This document shows, one piece after another, positions 10,301-52,900 of a DNA stretch of 64,000 nucleotides (position 1 is the stretch's first letter; every line of letters begins with the position of its first letter). The stretch comes from Zingiber officinale (taxonomy: Eukaryota; Streptophyta; Magnoliopsida; Zingiberales; Zingiberaceae), in assembly GCF_018446385.1 (NCBI RefSeq), contig NC_056000.1, forward strand, positions 75,340,688 through 75,404,687, written 5' to 3'. Position numbers and translations under genes: made by a program. The notes under the pieces were generated by a model that ran no database searches, had not been told where the DNA came from, and worked only from the letters and a program-made list of their open reading frames with translations.

Positions 10301-11908
10301 AGTCTAAATCTGATCAGCGTTTCGAAAGCAACAGGTCTACTGAAACGTCAACGATCAAAGCTTAAGACTCGACAATATGGACTTCCCGAAACTCAACCAG
10401 TGAGAAGAAACACGGCACATAAAACTCAACCAAAAGCCCTAAATATGTGATTGTAACCACACCCTATCTTATACCTCCTATAAAAAACTCACGGCAGAAA
10501 ATTCAAAGGGAATCACTGCCCCATTCGATAAGCTCCGGAAAAACAGAATGCTAACAAGAAATCCGAAACACATGTCGAAACTAAACAAAAAGGAACCCAA
10601 ATTGCAACTACTCAGCAATACATGATCCGAAACACAAGAAAAACGATTTGCGGCAGCAACCCTAATCTAACCTTCTTCACAGGACAAGTTCGGAACACAA
10701 AAGAAATAGAAATCCGAAGCTATCCTACTGTAGGTGAGTAAGCGACTTACCTTGCTGTTCTTGAGCTTACTACCGAAGGAGAAAGGCAGCTCTAGGGTTT
10801 CGGAGGAGCTCATGATCTCGGCCTCTTCCCTTCGTGTCCACGCGTCCTCCTTGACAAGGCGCTCACGGGCTTCTTCTTCACTGTCGCTCGAGAGGAGAAG
10901 GCGCACGGGAGGAGGAGATAGAGGTGAAGCCCTAGACCTCTTCTTCGTTTCTGCCCGAGAAAAGCCGACGCCGTCGCTCGCGATCGGGAGAGGAAAGGAG
11001 AGGGAAAAGGGTTTTCGGTTTTAGGGATTTACCACCTTAACTTATCCCTATTTATAATCTTCATATTCTGTTAACTTGTTAAATAATTATCCTACCTTTT
11101 CTAAATAGAAAAATTTGTTTGCCCACCTGGTCAGCCGGCTTTTAACCGAATCAAAGGTTTGGGCTTCGATTCCTTCGCCGCGCACTTTTTATTCCAATTT
11201 ATTTTAAACGTTCCAACTATAGCTTAAATATATTTCACTTCCTAATTTACTAGCAACAACAGCCAGCACAGTTGGTTAGTAGGGTTTTGACCGAGTCAAA
11301 GGTCGCTGGTTCAAACCTCGGCTTGGATATTTTTTTGTCAAAACTTCTTTCGTTTAGTAAAAATACCAAACGACCTCCAAAAATTACATAAAAATACTCT
11401 ATAAATTTCTAAAAATCTCTAAAATTTTTCTAAAGCATTTTTAGATTTTAATAAGGTATTTTAGGACTCCAAATCATGAAATTTGGGGTGTTACACTTCC
11501 TTTCAGAAGAAGCTCTCTACTCAGGAGAATTTACTTGACTTGCCAAAGATCCGATCCTCCAGACTTGTATGGACTTTCTGCTCAATATCTGATCCTCTGA
11601 CCCTAGGGCTTCATTTCGATGTCCGGTCCTTGCTGACCCATTGACCCGCTAGACATTCAATCCATTGACCCGTCTAGACTTTCCGTATGGTGTTCTCGAT
11701 CTGCTAAGACTTCTGCCTAGTATCCGGTCCAGCTGACCTACTAGGACTTTCATTTGCCTAGTATCCAATCAGTTTGACCTACTAGGTCTTTCTTGGTTGA
11801 GCTACCAGTACACTTAGTCAACATTGTTAGATTACAAATAAACTTAACTTTGAACTTTTGCCAATATCAAAATCCAGATTCAATTATCAGGTACTCTATG
11901 CACCAACA
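7390..11908 (-). mobile_element. SIRE-like LTR, split by a 3.3-kb solo LTR
   Basis: The outer sequence 7390-8224 continues at 11496 and ends CACCAACA at 11908. It has the layout of the other SIRE-type LTRs here: a GGGGGTTGAATAG block near one end and ATCCGGTC/CTAGGACTTTC-type degenerate repeats near the other. The left boundary is uncertain and no target duplication was found. Confidence 0.55.
8225..11495. mobile_element. Long solo LTR, gypsy-type ends, 3271 bp
   Basis: It starts TGTAACGACC and ends GGGTGTTACA, with a perfect duplication CTTCC (8220-8224 and 11496-11500). TGTAAC...GTTACA ends are common in chromovirus-type gypsy elements (Tekay/Del). No gag-pol remains. The stretch 10730-11030 is much more GC-rich than the rest and has short open frames on both strands, which I do not treat as genes. 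The length is high for one LTR, so a LARD-like non-autonomous element is an alternative. Confidence 0.85.
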
Positions 11909-12112
11909 CTTAGTCTTTCCGAGGATGTACCCCATTGTTCCTAATCCTTTACCTTTTGCTTTTGGAGTCCATGAGACTTGGTCTTTTCGGGGATATACCT
12001 AACGAGGTTGTTCACAATTCTTTATCTTTTAAAGTTCATGGGGACTTAGACTTTTCGGGGATATACCCAATGGGTTGTTCCGAATCCTTTATCTTCATGT
12101 GCAGAGAATTCA
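11909..12112 (+). repeat. 68-bp tandem repeat, three copies
   Basis: CTTAGTC/CTTGGTC/CTTAGAC plus TTTTCGGGGATATACC-like blocks start at 11909, 11977 and 12045, an exact 68-bp spacing. The array begins immediately after the LTR end at 11908. Open frames crossing it arise from the repeat. Confidence 0.85.
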
Positions 12113-12179
12113 GTAGAGATTCTGTGGACGGAGCCCCATCTCTGCTATGGCGGGTGGGTTGGAGCTCTCCTTAGATTGA

Positions 12180-13180
12180 TCGCATCATCAGCTGCTAGAG
12201 AAAAACTGCAGAAGCCATGGCAAAATGAGGAAACATATTTCACCTGTATGTTAAGATTATAACAGGCGGTCTTTGTCATTAAGAATTATGGGCTTATATA
12301 TTAAAATTATAACAAACAGTTATGTTATTAAGAATTAAGTACAATGCAGTGATCTGATCGATGGTTTAATTGTGAGCTAAATAAATAATATGGATTTTGT
12401 ATGTGAAGGTCTATTGTCCTATTTCTATTATCTGATGGGCAATAACTTAAACCAGCCTAAGGTAAAGAATGGACTTGGATCCTAACGGGCTGGGGTAACA
12501 AAACTTCTTTTTATCCCATCTGAAAGAAGATCACGGTTGTATTTCTTTGGAAGATCATCCTGCTGGAAAGGTTCTATTTCTTGATCTTCAGATTGTTCTA
12601 GCAACAATCCTAATGGCAACAACTCTAGATTCAGGTTAGATTTGGATTCGGGTTAGATTTTATAATAGTTCTTTTGTTTAAATCGCCATACATCAATGAT
12701 ATGATCCGGTTTAGAATTGTTCCGAATCTACGTGGTATTCATGAATCAAGAAAAATTCACTTTTAAGAACTTCATCACTCAAAGTGAAGAATAGTCGGAT
12801 ACAAATAAGCTTTCACAATGTTAAACTGCAAAAATTGAAACCACATCAACTATACAACATAATATCGGGCTGATGAAGAAGCTCGAAAGAGAATTGAAAT
12901 ACAAGAAACTTCCGTTGCTCAAGTTTTCAGAATCCCCAGCATCATAGAAGCCACTCCATCAGTGCAAAGTTTATTCCCATAACTTTATAAAAAAGTAGCA
13001 TTTATGTGTAAACTCCACAGATTTTTTTTTTCCCAGCACACACACCAACAAAACCAAAAGTACTTCAAAGCGATAAGAAAGGGACCGTCTTCAAGAACTT
13101 CAAGAGAGAACTGCAATGATCAAAAGCTAAATACGACCTTGTGGCAACATCACCGCAACATACTGACACACTGTACAATG
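12180..13180. other. Intergenic, 3' side of the CNL gene
   Basis: About 1 kb with no supported gene. A short local duplication (TTAAGATTATAACAGGCGG and ATTAAAATTATAACAAACAG) lies at 12250-12330. Part of this could be 3' untranslated sequence of the minus-strand CNL, but no clear polyadenylation signal was pinned down. Confidence 0.5.
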
Positions 13181-13604: not shown

Positions 13605-16250
13605 TCAATCCGCTTGCTTGAAGAGTTCCTGGAAGGACAATGTTCTTTCATCCGACCAATCTAGCTCATCCTGCCATTCTCTGTCACATTTGATCTCTGT
13701 CAAGTTTTCAGCAGCCAATGTCAGCTTCTTTAGCTTGGGACAATTCCTCACTTCCATCGTCTTCAGGGAAGGAAATGCTATTACTTGATCTCCGTCACTC
13801 AAATTCTCCAACTCCGGTAGCTTTCGAAGCACAATTTTTCTTAGTCTAGGGAAGATTGTAATAGTCTCTGTAGAATTAGTTGCATTGTTTACCACCTTCA
13901 TTAGCCGATCAATTGCATTGCAATCTTCAATTTCCAGCTCAAGTAGATTCTCTAAACACCTGTTCTTCCAGATAATCTTAGCTTTTGGGAGAGCCAAGAG
14001 ACGAAGATATTCAAGGCACGACAGAGCATTGAGAACTTGAAGATCACCACCAATGATTACCTCTTCAAGATCATGGAGTCGGATCAAAGCGACATTGTGT
14101 ATGTTTTCTCCAAGACAAAAAGTAGATGGAATGTCGAGACTCGCCAAGCCTCCGCAACCTTCAATCTGGAGACAATACACAGCGGCTGCAAGCCTTTGCG
14201 ACTCGCAGAGTCTTCGAAGAGCAGCTACTGAGCTCATGGTGATGTTAAGAACCTTCAATTTCTTCAATTTCTTCAAGCTTTCTACCTCGTCAAGAAGTAT
14301 CCCCTCTCCATCCAATTGCTGGTCTCCGACCACCCTCCACCCACTGTAACTGTTAAACATATCCAGCCATTGCAGTTGGTGAAGACAAGGAATGGCATCG
14401 CCAGGAATACTTCTCAAATGTGTAGTTGATGTCATCCTCAAAACTCTGAGATTCACCAGAGCTTGAATCTCCCTCGGCAGAGATGCAATCCTAGTGCTGG
14501 ATAAATCAAGCAATCGGAGCTGGGAAAGATTGCCAATCCCTGGTGGAAGCTCTTTTATGGAAGAATTCTGAAGATCCAGGACTTTGAGACGAGGCATGTG
14601 GGAGAAAAACTCATCGGGTATGTTCTTGAGAGGATGATTGTTTTGGAGAAGCAAGTAGATCAAGTCAGGGCACTGAGGCTCGTCGGGAAGAAGAGCTATG
14701 TTGTTCCAGCCCAAAGATATCCTCTCGGAGATTCTCCACTTCTCCGCTCCAGGTGCTTCTTCAAGACCATGTCCAGCTCTTATCAGCCATTTGCTCTCCT
14801 TCTTCCCGCAATCGCATTGCATCCCCAGTATCATGGAGCGAACCATAGGGTGCATTTTGAAGAACTCGTCGTCGATTCTTTGTATCAGAGACGCTGCGAG
14901 TAGCATTCCGAGCAGATATGAAGCTTTGTCTACACTTTCCAACCAGGTCTCAGAGTCGTTGATGAAACCTTCGCCGATCCAGAGCCAATTAACCTGGTAT
15001 TTGCTCAGCCGGTATCCTTCCGGCACCAGAGCGAAGTAGGACGCACACGTTAGCAATGTGTCGTTCAGATGGTCGTAGGAGAGTTTGAGAGGATGATAGA
15101 CATTCTCCTCCATTCTTGGAAGCTGGAACGGAGCCTCCTCCATGGTGATAAGAACATGCCTCCACTCTTCGATCTTCCTTTTGGTCGCCATTGTTTGCGC
15201 CATGGTGATGAGCGCCGCTGGCAAGCCGGCGCACTGTCGGACCAAAATTCTAGCCAAGTCCAGTATCCTTCGGTCGGTGCCAGCAAGATCCAGTTTTGCA
15301 TTGAATCTGAAGAGATCCCAAGCCGCCTCCTCCGGTAAGCATTCCAGTTTGATCGTCTTCTCTGCGCCCATGCGGCTGCAGACCTCCTCCATGCGGGTGG
15401 CGAACACGATTTTGCTCTTGCACGGCGGCTGGGGAAGTGGAATTCCCAAGATCTGGCAGTTCAAGGGCTCCCATACGTTATCCAGCAACAGTAAAAATCT
15501 CATCTTGCTCAACACGCGGAAAAGGCGGCCGGCTCTGTTCCTCTGCGGCTCCTCGTCTTTCCATGTGAGTTTCAATCGATCGAATAGGGACTTCTGGAGC
15601 TCCTCCGCATTGTACTCCGTCGGTAAGTCGACGTAGATGACTACATCCAGATTGTTCAGTTCCTTCTCTGCGAAATCATTGTTGAATCTTATCAGAAGGG
15701 TCGTCTTGCCAACGGCTCCCATGCCGTGGATCCCAATGATGCTGACGTCGTCATCCCTTGCATGGCCTAGCAGGGCCTCTACTGCCGTATCCATGCCAAC
15801 AGTTTGAGGATTCGGCATCTTGAAAAGACGATCGACTTCCAGGTCATCAGCCACGTCGGCGAACTCTCCGGCCTTCCTTTTTAAATCTGCCGCCACCGTG
15901 AGCGCTGCCTCAGCTCTGTTTCTGAGGGGGTAGCTGGAGCACAGATTGACCGGAAAGTTGCAGAGACACTTAAACATCCGGCGGTATGCAGTGTTTATGT
16001 TTTCAGCCTCGGAAGTGAAGTCTTCGACGGATTTAAGCCAGCCGAGGACTTCTTGCTTTGGATTGAGCTCATCCCTTTTGGCTGCCTCGATTTGCCTATT
16101 GATATCCTCGCTTTTGTTCTTTAGTTGGACAAGCTCTACGGCCAAGGAGGAGATGATTCCCTCGAATGAGACGATGTAATTGGAAGATTGGAAGCAGCAA
16201 TCCTTTAGAGTATTGAAGAGTGCAGTGATGCCGGCAATGATAGTGGCCAT
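13605..16250 (-). CDS. CC-NB-LRR disease-resistance protein (RPS2-like CNL)
   Basis: A single uninterrupted 881-residue frame encodes an intracellular immune receptor of the coiled-coil NLR class, which in general senses pathogen effectors and triggers defence. A coiled-coil-like N terminus (about 1-140) has no EDVID motif, as in RPS2-type CNLs. The NB-ARC domain follows: P-loop GMGAVGKTT (176-184), kinase-2 LLLLDNVW (253-260), RNBS-B KIVFATR (280-286), a GLPL-position motif GLPAAL (342-347) and an RNBS-D-like CASYFALVPEGYRLS (402-416). The MHD position reads MHP (466-468). Leucine-rich repeats run from about 520 to near the C terminus. The start codon is the first ATG and is followed by a typical MATIIAGI opening. 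Length and lack of introns are normal for the subclass. The D to P change in MHD and L to A in GLPL are unusual and may alter nucleotide-dependent control. No frameshift is present. Confidence 0.95.
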   Translation of the reverse strand: MATIIAGITALFNTLKDCCFQSSNYIVSFEGIISSLAVELVQLKNKSEDINRQIEAAKRDELNPKQEVLGWLKSVEDFTSEAENINTAYRRMFKCLCNFPVNLCSSYPLRNRAEAALTVAADLKRKAGEFADVADDLEVDRLFKMPNPQTVGMDTAVEALLGHARDDDVSIIGIHGMGAVGKTTLLIRFNNDFAEKELNNLDVVIYVDLPTEYNAEELQKSLFDRLKLTWKDEEPQRNRAGRLFRVLSKMRFLLLLDNVWEPLNCQILGIPLPQPPCKSKIVFATRMEEVCSRMGAEKTIKLECLPEEAAWDLFRFNAKLDLAGTDRRILDLARILVRQCAGLPAALITMAQTMATKRKIEEWRHVLITMEEAPFQLPRMEENVYHPLKLSYDHLNDTLLTCASYFALVPEGYRLSKYQVNWLWIGEGFINDSETWLESVDKASYLLGMLLAASLIQRIDDEFFKMHPMVRSMILGMQCDCGKKESKWLIRAGHGLEEAPGAEKWRISERISLGWNNIALLPDEPQCPDLIYLLLQNNHPLKNIPDEFFSHMPRLKVLDLQNSSIKELPPGIGNLSQLRLLDLSSTRIASLPREIQALVNLRVLRMTSTTHLRSIPGDAIPCLHQLQWLDMFNSYSGWRVVGDQQLDGEGILLDEVESLKKLKKLKVLNITMSSVAALRRLCESQRLAAAVYCLQIEGCGGLASLDIPSTFCLGENIHNVALIRLHDLEEVIIGGDLQVLNALSCLEYLRLLALPKAKIIWKNRCLENLLELEIEDCNAIDRLMKVVNNATNSTETITIFPRLRKIVLRKLPELENLSDGDQVIAFPSLKTMEVRNCPKLKKLTLAAENLTEIKCDREWQDELDWSDERTLSFQELFKQAD

Positions 16251-16327
16251 TTTTGCTGGAGAAGTAGAGCAGTAGACGATGAATGATAGAGGAGATTACG
16301 TTTCCAGCTGCAATCTTGCTGAAAAAT

Positions 16328-41173: not shown

Positions 41174-43024
41174 CTATGAGATAGAGAAAATGCTCCTAGG
41201 AATCCAAACCCTATTGGTGCTCCTTGGATGCTCTAGGTACTCACTAGGGATAACTTCCCTAGATACCTTCCTAGTGACCTTGTTAAGCTTCTTAGAAGCC
41301 TCGGTCATATTTTCTAGGTCAACTCTAGGGATTTCTTTCCTTGTGACCTTCTTTGTGACTTTCTTAGACTTCTTAGAAGTCTTAGTCACGTTTGTTGTTG
41401 CAAAAATACTTCTAGGGATAATTTTCCTTGCATTTTTGACTTGATCACTAGGCCTAGAGTTAGTTTCATAACTATATGGAACTCTATGGTAAGAAGACAC
41501 ATCCTTTTTGGTTTTAGGTTTGTATCCCAAACCTCTATGACCCTTGGATGACCCTTGTTGTCCTAACCCTAGATTTTGCTCATTTTGCCCTTTTAGGATA
41601 TTTTCCATCCTTTTTAGGGTCTTTTCTAATTTATCAAGTCTTGACCTCAAGACTTGATTTTCTCTCATTAAATCCTTAGTTTTTGGTTTTTCATTTAATC
41701 CTTGAGCAATTTTATTTTTAATCTTGTAACTAAAACCCTTGGAATTCTTGCCTAAATTTTTATCTACCTTCCTAGACCTAGGTGTGGTAGGTTTAGCATG
41801 AAGAGTTACATGTTTTTCCTTAATGCTATCATGCTTCCTATTTTTATGGTAAATAGTATTAAAATGATATAAATTAGAACTAGCATGTTTTTTACCATTA
41901 TTTAAAGGGGTAGGCTCAACAAATGATACCTTGCGTTTTATCTTGGAAGCTCCTTCTTGAGTTGTGCTTCCTCCTTGAGCCTTGACCGCTTTCTTTCCCT
42001 TTGGACATTGACTATAATAGTGTCCCTTTTGATTGCAAGAGAAGCACACAATGTGCTCCTTGCTCTTCTTTGTTCCGGGAGCAGTCTCTTTGGGCTTCTC
42101 CTTACCCTTTAGTGCCACTTGGCTCTTCTTCTTGGTCAATTTTGGGCATTTGCTTTTGTAGTACCCATATTCCCTACACTCAAAACATATAATATGATTT
42201 TTATTCTTAATTAAACCATTTTTATCTTCATGTGTAGGGATGACACTTGCTCCTCCATTTGATGTTTCTTGATTTTTGGAGGATGCAACATATTCTTCTC
42301 CATTTGACCCGGATGTAGAAGCTTCTCCTTCTTCTTGATCCGATGTCAACAAAGGTCTCTCCCCTTCAATCCTAAAGGTGGAGACCTCATCTTCCTCTTC
42401 ATCCTCTTGTACATGAAACAAGGAATATGCTCCTTCCTTGCTCTTTTGGTTGCACTCCTTTGAGGATGAAGCTTCTAGGACTTCTTCTTCCGATATTAAG
42501 CACCTCTCAACCTCAGAGTCCTCTTCTTCCGATATCAATGAATCACCCTCATTTGATTCTTCTTGGATTGGTACAGTGGAGGGGATCTTATGAATCGTTG
42601 TCAATTTTCTCCAAAGCTCCTTGGCATCCTTGAATTCTCCAATTTGCTCCAAAATGTGGCTAGGTAATAGATTGACCAAAAGCTTGGTCACTTTATCATT
42701 TGCCTCGCTCCTTTAAATTTGTTCTTGGCTCCACTTGCTTCTCTTGAGAACTTTGCCCTTTGAACTTGTTGGAGTTTCGAAGCCTTCCATGAGAGCAAAC
42801 CATTGCTCTATCTCCACCATCAAGAAATTTTCGATCCTTGATTTCCAAAGATCGAAGCTCATCATTGTGAACGGTGGAGGCACCCTTGTATCGAATTCAA
42901 GTCCATCTTGGAATTCCATTTGAAGTTGAGCTTCTTGAATGAAGTCTTCGACTTGTGGAATTGCTCCAACTTCTTCACCCTCTAGCTTTTTGCCCCTTCC
43001 AGCGATGATTCCGGTGAAGAGCAA
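41174..43024 (-). pseudogene. Copia gag with one in-frame stop
   Basis: A single frame of 617 codons from ATG at 43024 to 41174 is interrupted only by a TAA at 42715-42713, in SQEQI-stop-RSEANDK. It carries the copia gag region (FDLWKSRIENFLMVE, FKDAKELWRKLTTI) and a long acidic segment. Two zinc knuckles follow: CFECREYGYYKSKC, with Tyr replacing the zinc-binding His, and CFSCNQKGHYYSQC, intact. A basic, coiled-coil-like tail comes last. The gag is otherwise open, so it decayed late. An alternative is that the first 104 codons and the remaining 505 residues act separately. Confidence 0.88.
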
Positions 43025-43030
43025 CCTTGC

Positions 43031-43042
43031 TCTGATACCACT
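43031..43042 (-). promoter_or_regulatory. Copia primer binding site
   Basis: The minus strand reads TGGTATCAGAGC next to the 5' LTR and just upstream of the gag ATG. It is the same initiator Met tRNA site as at 4260-4271. Confidence 0.9.
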
Positions 43043-43043
43043 T

Positions 43044-43708
43044 ATTGGGACCGAAATGTAGCTAGGGGGTGAATAACTCTTCGCAATCTTGTGCTCTTCG
43101 TTGTTTTATTTCTTCGATGATGTGCAGCGGAAATACAAGAAAACCAACACACAACGCTAACACAAGGGATTTACTTGGTATCCACCTCAAGAAGAGGTGA
43201 CTAATCCAAGGATTCACACACTCACGCACCCTCTACTATGAAATTACTCCTTTACGGTAACTACCGAAGGAGGAGAAGCCTTACAACACTCTCAATACAA
43301 CAAGAAATAAAAAGAAGTAAATACAAGGGAAAAGCTTACAAGATTTACACAAGAAACCCTAACCCTAGCTTCTTCTTCTTGTTGTAACTCGCCTCTTGAC
43401 TTGGATGTGCCTCCAAAATCCTTCAAGAACTGGCGTGAGAGTGGAGAAGAAAGCTGTGGAGAAATCGCCTGTGTCGCTCGTGGAGTGGAATTGAAGAAGT
43501 GCCGAAGAAACGCTCGCCAACGGCTAATATCTGCGCCAACGATCGGATCCCAATCGATTGGATTGCTCCCAATCGATTGGATTGCTCCCAATCGATTGGG
43601 GGGGGCTTTGGATCGATCGGCTGATCGATCCAGAGCGCCTCTGTGCTCTCGGGAATTGCCTAGATCGATCAGCCAATTGATCCAGGGCTTATTGCGTGAA
43701 ATCGCAGC
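43044..43708 (-). repeat. 5' LTR, truncated to 665 bp
   Basis: It matches the first 650 bp or so of the 37398-38942 LTR. The terminal TG has mutated (TATTGGGACC). It stops abruptly at AAATCGCAGC, where the hAT transposase frame resumes. Confidence 0.85.
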
Positions 43709-45018: not shown

Positions 45019-47497
45019 CTAGGATCTTTTGGAGTTCATGTGCCACTCACACTGTTAATTTCATGCTTGAAAGTATTGGCAAGCTTCCATGATATAAAAA
45101 GATTATTAAGCAAGCCAAGTTTTTTACCATTTTTATTTATGCTCACCATAAGACTTTGTCATTGATGAGAAGTTTCAAAAAAGAAGAGAGACATAATCCG
45201 ACCAGGAGTTACTAAGTTTGCATCAAATTTCCTCACATTGCAAAGTTTGATTGTAAAAAAAAAACTAGTTTAAGGGTCATGTTTACAAGTAATTTGTGGG
45301 AAACATGTAAATGGTCAAAAACAAATAAAGGAAAATTGACTTACTTTACTGTGATGAGCATGAGTTTTTGGAATGGTGTGACATTTTGTTTAAAAATATT
45401 TACTCCTTTAGTGAGAGTTCTTCGATTGGTAGATAGAGACAGAAAGTCATCCATGGAGTTTCTATATAGGGAACTTCTTCAAGCTAAAGAAGATATCAAG
45501 ATGACCATGAATAATATGGAATCAAATTATCAACCTATCATAATGATTATTGAGTCAAAAATAAAGGATAGACTTGATACAACATTACATACTACTGTCC
45601 TTTTGTTGAATCCCTATTTTACTATAATGATAGTTCTATTGCTCTTTATGAGGATATTGCAACAGAGATTTTTGAATGCATGAAAATTTTGCATGCTAAT
45701 GAGTTAGATCTACATGATATAATTATTAACAAGGAATTTGTAAAATATAGAGACAAGACTGAGTTATTTGGCAAAACATTGGCAACAAAAGTATGTGGAA
45801 AGAATGATGATAAATTTGCTCTATGTGCATGGTGGAGTGCATACGGTGCTCACACACCCAACTTGCTAAGAGTGATATTGAGAATACTTTCATTAACTAT
45901 AAGTTTATCTGGGTGTGAAAGAAATTAGAGTGCATTTGAAGGGGTAAATTTTAAACTTTAAGTCTTTAATTTGTTTTAAAGTTTATATTTATGTCACTAA
46001 CTATAATATTTATTTTTTTAAAAAAAATCATATAAAGAAAAGAAATAGGTTGGATGCCAACAGGTTGAACAATATAGTATTTGTCCAATTTAATGCTAGA
46101 TTGTTGAACAAATAAAAAAGAGAAAAAGAAAGGAATGTGGATGTCCTCCTTGTAAAAGATGTTTCAAAATCACAAGGTTGGATTGTGGATGGTGGGGAAG
46201 ATGCTGAAGTTGAACTAGGTTCTGGACTCGTGACAAATGGTTGATGAAGCATGTGGAGTATATGATAATTTATAGCCCCGAAGAATCTCTGGAGTGCGAG
46301 AACTTCACGAGGATGACTTTACATCCGAAGAAGAAGAGGAGGATCATAATGATGATATTGAGTTTGTGTCCGATGAAAAGTAAGTTGTTAAAAATTATAG
46401 AGAAGAAGAAGTAGAATAAATGTGATATTTTATTAGTTGCGTAATTTAAAAGTTTGAACTCATTTTAAATTTAATATGTTATGTAATTTTAAACTCATTT
46501 TAAATTTGATGTTATTGTGTTAGAGTTATAGTATGTGATATATTATGTAATTTATGTGGATACCATAAAATTAGCCTAGCGATGCTTAATTTTCGTCTAG
46601 GCAGCCTAGGCACTAGGTACTAGTCTAGCACCCGACTAGCGCCTAACAAATTTTAGAACATAGCCCATAATAAATGTAGATATCAGAATTATGCATGTGT
46701 GGCTGTTGATAAAGTCTGATTACGAGTCCCAAGTTAAAAGTTTTAATCCTTCGACAATTTACTAAAGGGCACACGTAGCTTTCTGAATTTACCAAAAAGC
46801 ACATGCTACTTTGATATTTACTAAAGAATGCACCTTTTAAGTGCATTTCCCATTTTATCCTTCTGACAGATCTGACTTTTTACTTTTCTCTATTATTTCT
46901 TACTCTCTCTTCTATTCTTCTCTCCTATGCATGTAACTAATCTTATTTTTCCTCTCCTCTCTTCTCTTTCTTCTCTTTTTTTTCATACGTGCATGTATAT
47001 CAAGCCCACGATGTTTAGAGTTTAGTTAATTTTTTGATAACATTTTAATACATTTGGAGAAGTCAAAATAATCAATAAATAGCATATTTGAACTCTTTAT
47101 AACCCCAGAAATCGATCCATTATTTATTTCAGCTTCTACAGAGGTATAGAATTATAATAATGATGAATAGACAAAACTCCTCATGCGTGGGCCTAACATG
47201 GAGGTTTTTTTACTGATTTTTTTATTACATTTTAACACCTTATAGATGTCAAAATAAATAATGGATAGCATATTTGAACTCCTTGTAACATCATAAATCC
47301 ATAGGAACTGAAATGGGTACAGTCGTTCCTGTGGATTTATGATGTTACAAGGAGTTCAAATATGTTATTCATTGTTTATTTTAACATCTATAAGATGTTA
47401 AAATATATATAAAAAAAAAGAATCAGCAAAAATGTCTAAATATTGGGTCTGATATAAATCGTATCAGCTTGAGTACTAATATTCCCCCCATACCCAG

Positions 47498-47617
47498 CTT
47501 GCAGAGGTAAAAGGACACCAGAACTGGGTGAAAGTTTCAAGAGAGTACCTCAAGTTTCCAGGGGGAGGAACTCAATTTAAACAAGGTGCCCTTCACTACA
47601 TTGATGTCATCCAAGAG
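47498..47617 (+). pseudogene. Captured exon of PMT-type methyltransferase, copy 1
   Basis: Forty open codons after a CCCAG acceptor: LAEVKGHQNWVKVSREYLKF, then PGGGTQFKQGALHYIDVIQE. The motif pair HQNWV and GGGTQFK..ALHYID is characteristic of plant PMT (DUF248, QUA2-related) Golgi putative methyltransferases, where it precedes the SAM-binding core. Only this exon and pieces of flanking intron are present, so it cannot encode an enzyme. SREYL, where the other copy has SGEYL, is a private change. Confidence 0.8.
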
Positions 47618-48336
47618 GTTGAGTACTGGTCTTAAGTGATTGTGACTTGTATGATTGTTTAATTTAAGCATTTGCTTGTTCCTTCTACCTGTATGTGCTT
47701 GAGGATTTTTCATTCTTGATTGCCCAAACTAGTGGCATACAGTGTTGGAGCAATCATAGACACATCCATAATGAAATGAAGAGTTCCTAAAATAGTTGAG
47801 CATTCCTAATAGAGTGAGACCCACATTGGGCCTAATATGGAATCATATCAGGCTCACGTTGGGCCTGATATGGAATCATATCAGGCCTAACATGGACCTG
47901 ATATGATTCATATCAAGCCTAACGTGGAGATTTTTTGCTGATTCTTTTTTCTTATATTGTAACACATTCTAACAGTCAAAATAAACAATGTATAACATAT
48001 TTAAACTCCTTGCAACATCAGGAATTCACAGGAATTGAAATGGGTACAATCGGAGCTTTCTAGGTCCATTAGTGGATTTTGATCGAAATTCACTGATGGA
48101 CCTAGAGACCTCAGATTACACCCATTTCAATTTCTGTGGATTCCTAAGGTTACAAGGAGTTCAAATATGCTATTCATTATTTATTTTGGCTTATCAGATA
48201 TGTTAAAATGTAATAAGGAAGAATCGGTAAAAATCTCCAAGTTGGGCATGATATGATTCAATCAGCAAAAATCTCTAAATATTGGGCCTAATATGAATCA
48301 TATTAGCTTGAGTACTGATATTCCCCCCATACCTAG

Positions 48337-48456
48337 CTTGCAGAGGTAAAAGGACACCAGAACTGGGTGAAAGTTTCAGGAGAGTACCTCAAGTTTCCAA
48401 GGGGAGGAGCTCAGTTTAAACAAGGTGCCCTTCACTACATTGATGTCATCCAAGAG
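48337..48456 (+). pseudogene. Captured exon of PMT-type methyltransferase, copy 2
   Basis: Forty open codons, 839 bp downstream of copy 1 in the same orientation. It keeps VSGEYLKF but has PRGGAQFK where copy 1 has PGGGTQFK. The surrounding intron-like DNA is also duplicated (about 48265-48690 against 47420-47900). Neither copy has a stop or frameshift. Confidence 0.8.
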
Positions 48457-49345
48457 GTTGAGTACTGACCTTAAGTGATTATGACTTGTATGATTGTTTA
48501 AATTAAGCACTTGCTTGTTCCTTCTACCTGTATGTGCTTGAGGATTTTTCATTCTTGATTGCACCAAACTAGTGGCGCAGTGTTGGAGCAATCATAAACA
48601 CATCCATTATGAAATGAAGAGTTCCTAAAACAGTTGAGCATTCCTAATAGAGTGAGACTCACATTGGGCTTGATATGGAATCATATTAAGTCTAACATGT
48701 GTTTGATATGATTCATATAAGGCCTAATACATTTAGAGAAGTTAAAATAAACGATTGCGCCCATTTAAGTTTCTGTAGATTTCTGATGTTACAAGGAGTT
48801 CAAATATGCTATCCATTGTTTATTTTGACATCTACAAGGTGTTAAAATGTAATAAAAAAATCAGTAAAAAAAACCTCCATGTTAGGCCCACGCATGAGGA
48901 GTTTTGTCTATTCATCATTATTATAATTTTATACCTATGTAGAAGCTGAAATAAATAATGGATCGATTTTTGGGGTTATAAAAAGTTCAAATATGTTATT
49001 TATTGATTATTTTGACTTCTCCAAATGTATTAAAATGTTATCAAAAAATCAACGAAACTCTAAACGTCGTGGGTCTGATATGCATGTACGTATGAAAAAA
49101 AAAAAAAAAAAGAGAGGAGAGGAAAAATAAGATTAATTACATGCATATGAGAGAAGAATAGAAGAGAGGGTAAGAAATAACAGAGAAAAGTAAAAAGTCT
49201 GATTTGTCAGAAGGATAAAATTGAAAATGTATTTAAAAAAATACGTTCTTTAGTAAATATCAAAATAACGTATACTTTTTGATGAATTCAAAAAGCTACG
49301 TGCATCCTTTGATAAATTATCATTGATCCTTTAAAATTTAAAAGG

Positions 49346-49973
49346 TGAGATTAGATTGATGCTCTATTAAACGATCAGTATTTTCAGAATGATCATTTCA
49401 CTGAATAAAAATTCTTATGGTATATCATAGTTGAGATTCAACGCTCAAATACTTAATTAACAATTTAGAAAGTCTAACCGCTGGATGCACCGGAAGCCAG
49501 ATATAATCAGGCAGTTGATGGTTTGCCCTATAACATTTGATGAAACTTTCGGACAAAGGATATTTTAGAAACTAAATATATCCTTTATAAATTCATATAT
49601 CCTTTAAAAGTTTGTAGAAATCTGAGAGTCAGAATGCCGAAGAATGTATGTATTTATTTATTCCATTTTTAGCAAACTGTGAATCGCAATTGTCTGATGT
49701 CGTTGACAGTATTCCAGTTTCTTTCTCCCACAATTATTAACAAAAAAAAAAAAAAAAAGTCAAAAGGGACCCAACACATCCCATCCTGCGGCATCGCCCT
49801 CAGAATATTCCCCCGTCTCCTCTTGTACAACCCCCAACGTTCAACAAGCAGACAACGTTCGCTTCGGCGTGAGGATCGAAGTTTGGTCGCCGCCTCGTTC
49901 CTTAAATCCCCCCTCTCTCTGTCTCTTCGTGGGAGATCGCGTAGAATCGGAAGAGGAAGAGGAAGAGGAAGAG
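49346..49973 (+). promoter_or_regulatory. Upstream region of the PHF1/SEC12-like gene
   Basis: No other gene was seen. A poly-A run lies at 49741-49757 and a GC-richer probable 5' leader at about 49790-49973. An in-frame ATG at 49869 would add 35 mostly acidic residues. The ATG at 49974 gives the start expected for the family and is preferred. Confidence 0.5.
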
Positions 49974-52900
49974 ATGGAGGGCGACGACACGGCGGGACCG
50001 GCGACGTGCGCGGCGTGGATCCGGGGACCGGAGAAGCGGCTGCTGGTGGTGATGGGAAGGGCGAGGAATCACTCCTGCCCTCCCGTGATCGACATCATCG
50101 AGTTCGACCCCAAGACCGCTTCTCTCTCCCCCGATCCCCTGGTTCGTATTCGGTCCCCTTGCTCGTCTTTTGATTATACCCGTTGGTTTTTGGGTTACGT
50201 TGACCAAGAGTGACATTGAATTGTGTCGCAGGCGAGGTTCGTGATCAGGGATGAGGAGGGAGGCGACCCACTGGGGATCGCGGTGCACCCTAGTGGGGAC
50301 GAGTTCGTTTGCTCCACCGCCAGCGGCTGCAGGTGAACTTTTCATCTATTTTACAGTTTAGGGGTTTCAAAAGATTCGGGTAATTACTACCTGCCACGTT
50401 ACTTTGTCGTTGATGAAGATCTCGATTGTTGGGAAAAAAGAAGAAGTTAATTTAGATGATTTAACTTTATCTAAGATAGTTTACCCAAACAAGCCTCAAC
50501 TTGTGGTGAGTAGAATTTAATGCAACACTGGTATTTTAGATGTACTTTGAAATCATGAGGCTGTATATTGATTATCTTGGAAAGCAACTTCCACCTGACT
50601 TCAATGCTGATTGATATGGCGTGGAATGTGGGGCCCCCGAGGTTGAGGTCAAAGTCATGGAAGCCGATTGATGTGATAGTCAAAGTCAAGGAGAGGTCAA
50701 CATTCGGTGCTAGCATGATCATATGTCTGGACCGGGTGTTCTAGCTGATCAGACCTCTTGTCTGATCGGATCCTGAGCCCCTCAAGATCGATGAAACCCC
50801 AATCGATATAAGTGTCCTTCAGAGTCGAGTTTGCTTAGTCACTCGGGGTGGGGCTAGCTCGGTTACACCTTTCGGCCAAGTATCCTAGCCGATCGGGCTT
50901 ATGGTCCGATCAGATGTGCTAAACATACGGTCCGACCGGACTCTGTAGCCAAGTGAAGAGGTCCGACCTATTTCATAGTTAAGATTATAAAAAAATAGAA
51001 CTTTTTATTTATGGTACGTTGAAATGGATCATTTTGTGATAATCCTACATGCTTAACTAAAAAAATTAGTAATGAAAACTCATGATATTTCAGACCTATT
51101 TTCATGTGAAAGATTCTTGCAATTCCTTTTCCCTTTATATTTTGTCTTCAACAAATCAAATGCTTCCTCTTTTGTAGAATGACAAATTTATTGTTTTTTT
51201 GCTTTTAACTTTCAGTGAGAAATTTCAGAAAACAGTTCATCTCTTTTGTTTGCAGATTATATGACTTAGATTATCACAATTTGGGTATAAAGATCCTAGT
51301 CAAGGATCTTCCAGCTATCCAGTCCATTGGCACTCAGAAATGTCTGGCATTTAGTACAGATGGTTTGAAATTTGCTGTTGGTGGAGAAGTATGTATTTTC
51401 TTGCATCCTAGACTATTCATTAATTGTAATTCTCTATCCAGCAACCGATTTGAACTTAATTAAAATATATAAATTGAAAATAGAGAAAACCTATGCTGAT
51501 GTGTAGGATAAGTCTATAACTCTATAAATACAATGTGTGCACTACACAATCATATAATGAGTGTGCTTTGATGCTCTGCTTCAACATCTACTTAATTGAA
51601 CAGTGAAAGTGTTTTTTTTATTACTTCAGGATGGACATCTTAGAATAATTCATTGGCCAACATTGAATTTGCTCTTAGATGAGCCAAAAGCTCACAACTC
51701 TTTTAGAGACATGGATATCAGGTAAAGCAGCTCTTTTGCATCACTCTTTATTTCTCCTCTTGTAATTACATTATCATTGATATGCTCTTGCACAGAATAG
51801 AGGGCTATCGGAATCCCACACTACTTTGTGTTTGACTTGATGTGAAGAGCATCATGTCTGCTTATCTTGCATATTTTCAACCACCCATAAGTTGATCCGA
51901 TATTTTTCATGTTAAGCAGCTTGAAGTTTGTATCTGATGACCTAATTAAATTTGTTTTCCATTTGTCTATTCTGATTGGGGTAGAAATATATGGGATAAT
52001 TTGATAACACATTTCTGATAAGAAGAGCCTTAGGTAGAGATATGGTTATTAACCTCCAATAACATTTAATTCTGCATATAAATGAGATTATTATGAAATT
52101 GCTTTAGATTAATCTTATGAAATGTAATGTATTCCTGATTAAGTATGAGTTGGAACATGAATAAACTTGATATTAAAGTATCTGAAAACTTGTCAAAATA
52201 TGAACTACTGAACTACATGATAGAGTTGCAGAAATATTCTTAATTTGGAACTTTAGTAACTAGTTAACGGTAACTGGGATCAATTTTTCCTGAGCTAACT
52301 GATTAATTATGAGTTTTTCCATAGGTTACTTTCAAAATAGTACGATCACTAGATTTACCTCTTAAGTGCCACACGTTACTTATAATAATCATCATGGTGA
52401 TGGGTTGATGCTTACACAGTACATTTTCTTTGAACTTTATTTATCAGCTTAGACTCAGAATTCTTAGTTTCAACATCTACTGATGGTTCTGCAAGAATAT
52501 GGAAGATAGCTGAGGGTGTTCCATTAGCCTCATTAACTCGCACTGCAGTAAGCTTCCCCTTCAGGGTCATGTATTTGTTGTTTATAAAGTTCCGAGGTCT
52601 GTTGTTTATAATGTCTTTTCTATGGCATGTTTCAGGATGAGAAGATTGAGTGTTGCCGATTTTCTAGAGATGGAACAAAACCCTTCTTATTTTGCACTGG
52701 CCAAAAAGGTTGCTAACCATCAACCTAAAAAAGTCATTTCAATTACTACTTATTTTCTGAATAGTCTCGAATTTGGCTGAAAATAGGTAATAAAGCGGTA
52801 ACTACAGTATGGGATATTAGTACATGGAACAGAATTGGTTATAAGAAGCTAATGGGAAAGCCTATTTCTGTTCTTTCAATTAGCTTGGATGGGAAGTACC

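Follow-up and report, generated by a model that had tools for sequence, protein, structure and literature searches.

A ginger Pack-MULE family with doubled and inverted methyltransferase gene fragments that probably replaced an older Remorin cargo

We report on a transposable element in a 64,000-nucleotide stretch of the ginger (Zingiber officinale) genome (contig NC_056000.1, positions 75,340,688–75,404,687 of the forward strand; hereafter the window, whose coordinates are used throughout). The element spans positions 46752–49322 (2571 bp, no strand assigned) and is an apparently nonautonomous Mutator-like element (MULE) with a captured gene fragment (Pack-MULE), whose termini are common to other copies in the genome. 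Very probably, a piece of a PMT-family methyltransferase gene replaced an older Remorin cargo in this family, was doubled and flipped between hairpin modules, and is now carried as a methylated, decaying passenger.

An initial annotation, made from the letters of the window alone, had placed a Pack-TE-like element with arms of about 500 bp at 46735–49345; that this is one element holds, with its limits refined to those given above. The left terminal inverted repeat (TIR), composed of arm A and a module B (46753–47327, plus strand), aligns with the right one (48750–49321, minus strand) over 577 columns at 89.6% identity, and thus the arms measure ∼575 bp. Inner inverted repeats, also anticipated, form a first hairpin (modules B and b′, 47217–47417, 86.3% self-inverted match) and a second, loop-free palindrome (47898–48265, 80.0% over 370 columns). 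A third, collapsed hairpin module (48725–48860) runs into the right arm; it contains a third b′ copy (48753–48855) and a B module shrunk to ∼30 bp. A unit made up of a hairpin and the PMT piece is found twice, head to tail (47326–47890 and 48131–48727, 84.9% identity), followed by the collapsed hairpin, and arms, hairpin modules, PMT piece and a cargo relic described below account for the interior. Of the arm sequence, only B (90–135 bp) and a similar stretch of A are repeated within the element. The rest of the window contains just two short stretches that match the element (21 and 42 bases). Because the same parts recur at other places in the genome, the arrangement is not due to chance; across the family the arms vary between ∼440 and 575 bp and are accompanied by inner hairpin modules. 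By eye, the arm ends (46753–46840) contain ∼30-bp units that start roughly with TTTACYAAA and include GCAC, perhaps repeated transposase-binding sites.

The element is flanked by a candidate 9-bp target site duplication (TTAATCCTT at 46743–46751 and TTGATCCTT at 49323–49331, no strand assigned) matching at 8 of 9 positions, compared with a mean of 2.74 and a maximum of 7 for shifted controls. We tested 11 element copies by script: eight show a perfect 9/9 duplication, the window copy and its counterpart L010 reach 8/9, and L025 scores 0/9 with the automatically chosen end. At a neighboring terminus of L025, ∼16 bases further in, TTTTAAAAA is found on both sides (9/9 by eye), where a shifted control also reaches 9. 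Counted by insertion, duplications flank all eight that were tested (window/L010, L014/L021–22, L020, L025, L026, L027, L028/L029 and L040–41, the last without PMT), six being exact by script, L025 exact by eye and window/L010 at 8/9. L012, L015, L016, L017–18, L024 and L030, in which one or both ends are missing or unrecognized, were left out. Shifted controls average 2.6–3.9 of 9 across the copies, with maxima of 6–8 outside L025, and several of the duplications consist of A and T only. Target site duplications of 9–11 bp define MULEs in the accessible part of PMC3310237, together with long TIRs (typically 100–500 bp), such as the 577-column arms that recur at other loci. The 9-bp duplications and arms of >400 bp thus assign the element to the Mutator superfamily and sharpen the earlier, more general label to Pack-MULE.

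An origin of the arms from two unrelated repeat insertions, which the initial annotation had named as the finding that would overturn it, is ruled out, since arms and boundaries recur with 9-bp duplications in other copies. The family is large, as an arm alone returned 2348 first-look candidates, of which the best 40 were scored. Long inserts in L017–18, L021–22 and L040 hold long direct repeats and resemble long terminal repeat (LTR) retrotransposons. That the large members found on C3 and C10 might be autonomous was considered and rejected on the basis of their inner direct repeats (884 bp and 2.0 kb, ∼92.5%), which are as in nested LTR retrotransposons; their proteins were not searched. The long insert of one PMT-bearing element also contains a tandem array with a 64-bp period (L017–L019 joined, 11232–12635; C3:141.07 Mb). 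Searches of Rfam at gathering scores (46000–50000) and of plasmids with the element returned no match, and the single match of the TIR-end pattern in viral contigs, in a 6-kb contig, was judged to be chance from the surrounding 401 bases.

The captured piece comprises 257 bp of one PMT gene, 137 bp of an exon and ∼120 bp of the following intron. In copy 1 the exon fragment, which lacks the 5′ end of the donor exon, lies at 47481–47617 (plus strand; positions 64–108 of PF03141) and the intron part at 47618–47737 (plus strand), where the alignment to the donor stops. Copy 2 has its exon fragment at 48320–48456 and its intron part, located by alignment of the two copies, at 48457–48576 (both plus strand). 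The 300-bp units around the exon copies are 94% identical and 839 bp apart, and the translations match Methyltransf_29 (PF03141) with E values of 3.9e-16 and 1.3e-12, in agreement with the two direct copies of a PMT-family exon (47498–47617 and 48337–48456) described initially. These were said to be open with different replacements and to carry intron flanks. Both are indeed open over the 40 codons given and differ from each other by replacements, whereas the longer frame is interrupted in copy 2 by a TAG at 48334–48336; the codon just before the 47498-type start is CAG in copy 1 and TAG in copy 2. The 3′ flank is intron, but the left flank is coding, its SPHTQ codons matching the gene and the donor. 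A frame error at a run of six C was ruled out, as the donor has the same run, and so was a processed retrocopy, as the donor intron is included. A sequence search of the PDB with the exon yielded unrelated proteins (best E value 0.57).

A DNA search of the 3,090,333,446-base ginger genome with the 120-bp exon, which the initial annotation had suggested, returned 40 candidates, all of which were scored (the window and loci L010–L039). It located the donor PMT gene, the lack of which would have counted against the annotation, and further element copies: 29 matches are element-borne, two are donor alleles and nine are paralogues, the latter being PMT relatives of 75–84% identity without arms. Both donor loci, L011 (C7) and L013 (C8), are armless and align with copy 1 at 92–93% over the exon and ∼120 bp beyond it; they are 96.1% alike over 7.9 kb, and we read them as two alleles of one donor gene. 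Open frames in L013 match PF03141 at positions 1–59, 107–199, 290–384 and 435–505, in this order and around the captured segment; judged by these four segments, the fragment captured by the element has an apparently complete donor elsewhere in the genome. The accessible part of PMC8342452 describes the assembly as haplotype-resolved, and we thus take pairs such as C15 and C16 to be two haplotypes. The 29 element-borne matches sit in 16 elements, which reduce to 11 distinct insertions after grouping of alleles by paired chromosomes and shared surroundings (89–97%; window/L010, L014/L021–22, L015/L016, L027/L030 and L028/L029). Judged from its flanks, which are those of the window element (94–96% identity across the surroundings), L010 on C16 is an allele of the window insertion, which is hence present on both haplotypes.

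Comparison of donor and elements defines the limits of the capture. At the left junction the donor reads ...CTACAG|ATATGGTACAGCAATTCCCCCCATACC and the majority of elements ...ATCAGCTTGAGTACTGATATTCCCCCCATACC; the sequence common to both starts at ATTCCCC, within the exon. The splice acceptor, as placed by the reading frame, would therefore not have been captured. This junction is identical in 27 of the 27 element copies aligned (L024_4675m and L028_3868m, whose match starts later, and three late pieces were omitted), and on the right the donor match ends at 47737. One capture is enough, since the left junction recurs in all 27 and an 82-bp stretch next to the PMT piece is present at every PMT-bearing locus. 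At five positions all element copies differ from both donor alleles, which would suit a single capture or, alternatively, changes in the donor. At the left junction, the 11-base filler TTGAGTACTGA recurs 138 bp into the donor piece, a match equalled by 3 of 2000 shuffles over 2 kb of the donor and by none of 2000 over the captured interval, and a second match of 11 bases, this time to the opposite donor strand, exists for a stretch nearby. We regard this as only a weak hint of templated filler.

The 82-bp stretch (seg2; 47736–47817 for copy 1 and 48578–48655 for copy 2, both plus strand, the latter at C15:75389265–75389342, 96%) has no match in the PMT donor and is probably a relic of an earlier Remorin cargo. 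Among the best 40 of 274 first-look candidates scored with seg2, 20 lie in PMT-bearing elements and 20 elsewhere, as assigned by coordinates. All of the latter 20 adjoin Remorin sequence, 17 as matches to the Remorin-bearing cargo and three to Remorin_C, with adjacency judged by eye from coordinates. Four of these places were fetched (L042–L045), and all four belong to the same arm and hairpin family. Their Remorin cargo is an antisense stretch of ∼463 bp in L042–L044, of which L045 has the last 222 bp; the two translations scanned match Remorin_C with E values of 8.7e-12 (L044) and 1.6e-10 (L042). A search with the L043 cargo returned 60 candidates, the best 40 of which are all 88–100% identical (the query, L042 and L044 included). 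Seg2 fits the intron preceding the last remorin exon, because a split near profile position 49 is seen in many ginger remorin genes and the Remorin matches in the elements start at positions 49–53. The rest of the Remorin cargo is found in none of the fetched PMT-bearing loci. At the right junction the PMT donor and the Remorin form have CAC in common (by eye), which would suit template switching. Taken together, the PMT piece probably replaced an older Remorin cargo, overwriting most of it and leaving 82 bp behind. The members with an antisense Remorin_C fragment (L042–L045 and the scored cargo places) form a more numerous sister group within this MULE family, and many of them retain a 103-amino acid open frame.

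The PMT cargo occurs in several arrangements. Two or three copies are present in nine of the 11 distinct insertions: they are parallel in four (window/L010, L012, L015/L016 and L025, in which the first copy is broken up), and inverted copies are found in five (L014/L021–22, L017–18, L020, L024 with three copies, and L026). L027/L030 and L028/L029 have a single copy.

To assess decay, we analyzed 28 copies longer than 200 bp, dropping four shorter pieces, and found at least one stop codon in the exon frame of 16. Relative to the consensus there are 88 nonsynonymous changes, 37 synonymous ones and 21 to stop (60/25/14%), where the spectrum of the noncoding part predicts 63/29/9%. C:G>T:A accounts for 251 of 400 changes, affecting 106 of 657 CHG sites versus 145 of 3219 CHH sites; the consensus has zero CG sites. 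This pattern looks like that of cytosine methylation in the absence of coding constraint, and a coding function of the window copy is most unlikely.

The window element has a predicted folding energy of −1274 kcal/mol (−543 to −570 kcal/mol for five base shuffles), with 537 of 575 left-arm bases paired to the right arm. Its exon stretches pair over 87 and 76 of 137 bases with other partners, and there is no antisense PMT copy in this element. Of the five insertions with inverted copies, two were folded: in L026, one PMT copy is predicted to pair with the other over 343 of its 351 bases, and in L020, 237 of 243 bases of a shortened copy are paired. The inverted siblings could thus form an exon duplex, and silencing of the donor gene by the element family is possible. 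The two donor exon alleles contain 137 distinct 21-mers, of which 96 are exactly present in some element copy, 61 and 65 in the two window copies, and none in the nine paralogue exons; any such small RNA would therefore be specific to one gene. Small RNAs are described for MULEs with gene pieces in the accessible parts of a review (PMC13317346) and of a report with rice data (PMC4858842).

These observations lend some weight to the idea of a family of regulatory loci, in which the inverted siblings are transcribed, the PMT duplex is processed to 21–24-nucleotide RNAs that lower donor expression, and the window copy arises as a by-product or serves as an additional target. We consider this unlikely, since the decay of the copies is unconstrained and suggests methylation, the main copies of the inverted elements each match the donor perfectly at just 12–61 of the 137 21-mers, and the window copy has no antisense exon. 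A broader proposal, that the family exchanges captured cargo at one constant interior site and turns the copies head-to-head into a hairpin directed against the donor, appears similarly doubtful; if true, the family would have an inherent pathway by which gene capture yields gene-specific duplex RNA, simultaneously at several loci.

We prefer the history of a replaced, rearranged and decaying cargo. In this history, break or replication repair within a hairpin-rich element would have brought in the PMT piece by template switching, at the expense of most of the Remorin cargo. The piece may then have been doubled and flipped as hairpin modules exchanged or slipped, a transposase from another element may have moved the PMT-bearing element, and the resulting copies would have become methylated and decayed as passengers. 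Any effect on the donor gene would be exerted via small RNA from the inverted siblings.

A tree of the PMT copies (39 rows, 35 different) bears on the doubling step. Window copy 2 groups with copy 2 of L010 (support 97/90), which places the doubling before the haplotypes diverged. In L026 the two copies are sisters (99/96), a pairing resolved in no other element, which is what two independent captures, or two nested insertions, might leave behind in the window. Such an origin is very improbable, because the junctions are identical in both copies and in other elements and the 84.9% repeat unit takes in the hairpin modules. Still less credible is that the exon copies encode part of a protein kept by selection: copy 1 is open over 45 codons, but the donor splice acceptor is missing, more than half of the copies contain stops and the substitution pattern is near the neutral expectation.

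Several points weigh against the preferred history. The order of events, Remorin first and PMT second, is inferred from the relic, and the evidence for seg2 and for the Remorin cargo comes from the best 40 of 274 and the best 40 of 60 candidates, respectively. Mobility rests on the 9-bp duplications and the long arms, and the target duplication of the window element itself has one mismatch. Stop codons exceed their expectation (14 versus 9%), and the changes counted are not independent, since the copies are related and their own consensus served as reference. The copy tree is poorly resolved, with 11 of 32 inner branches open, and it leaves the order of the copies open for several elements. 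That copy 1 of L010 joins the pair of second copies (86/75) instead of its window counterpart hints at conversion between copies.

The family resembles known Pack-MULEs in its long inverted arms, 9-bp target duplications, several copies, and a host-gene fragment that includes an intron and has an extant donor. It differs in that the cargo is doubled or tripled in most insertions, often inverted, and adjoins what is probably left of an older cargo. Another parallel is offered by inverted-duplication silencing loci such as Mu killer, since a transposon that holds the same sequence in both orientations could give rise to duplex RNA. The target of Mu killer is itself a transposon, whereas the sequence matched in ginger is a host gene and the duplex is predicted only. 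The multi-TIR MULEs, including PM-ZIBP from tomato (Ferguson & Jiang 2012, PMC3310237, accessible part), likewise have repeated arm sequence and, as a multi-copy family of Pack-MULEs, carry a single captured gene fragment. In PM-ZIBP, however, the complete TIR is in tandem at the ends, whereas the element from ginger, a monocot, has no such tandem of complete external and internal TIRs and instead alternates arm-derived hairpin modules with repeated interior cargo. Drosophila FB4 and Pack-TIR elements, for which the available text of PMC8277862 proposes template switching (the FoSTeST model), share repetitive arms, inner tandem duplications and junction microhomology; they are animal elements, unlike the plant Mutator superfamily member with replaced cargo described here. 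How Pack-MULEs acquire gene pieces is still called unsettled in the parts accessible of PMC13317346, PMC3310237 and PMC8277862. We found no literature report of this ginger element family, a weak negative given the poor coverage of subscription papers.

Overall, the window element is an old, probably methylated passenger of a known kind, unusual for the likely replacement of its cargo, for doubling in nine and for flipping in five of 11 insertions. The family provides an apparent before-and-after pair within one genome, members with Remorin cargo versus members with PMT in its place. For the question of gene capture, the two junctions are available together with the relic of the old cargo and, on both haplotypes, the PMT donor. 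Insertions with parallel, inverted and single copies of one cargo represent a natural set for asking whether captured pieces silence their donor.

Other features of the window include an 896-amino acid open frame (13605–16295, minus strand) with an NB-ARC domain and RPS2-like leucine-rich repeats, a gene of the disease-resistance type, and a Copia-type gag-like frame with zinc knuckles (41174–43105, minus strand; weak matches for 41177–42712). A gene apparently starts 652 bp to the right of the element (49974 onward, plus strand); one of its frames has a weak WD40 match, and we take it to be SEC12/PHF1-like.

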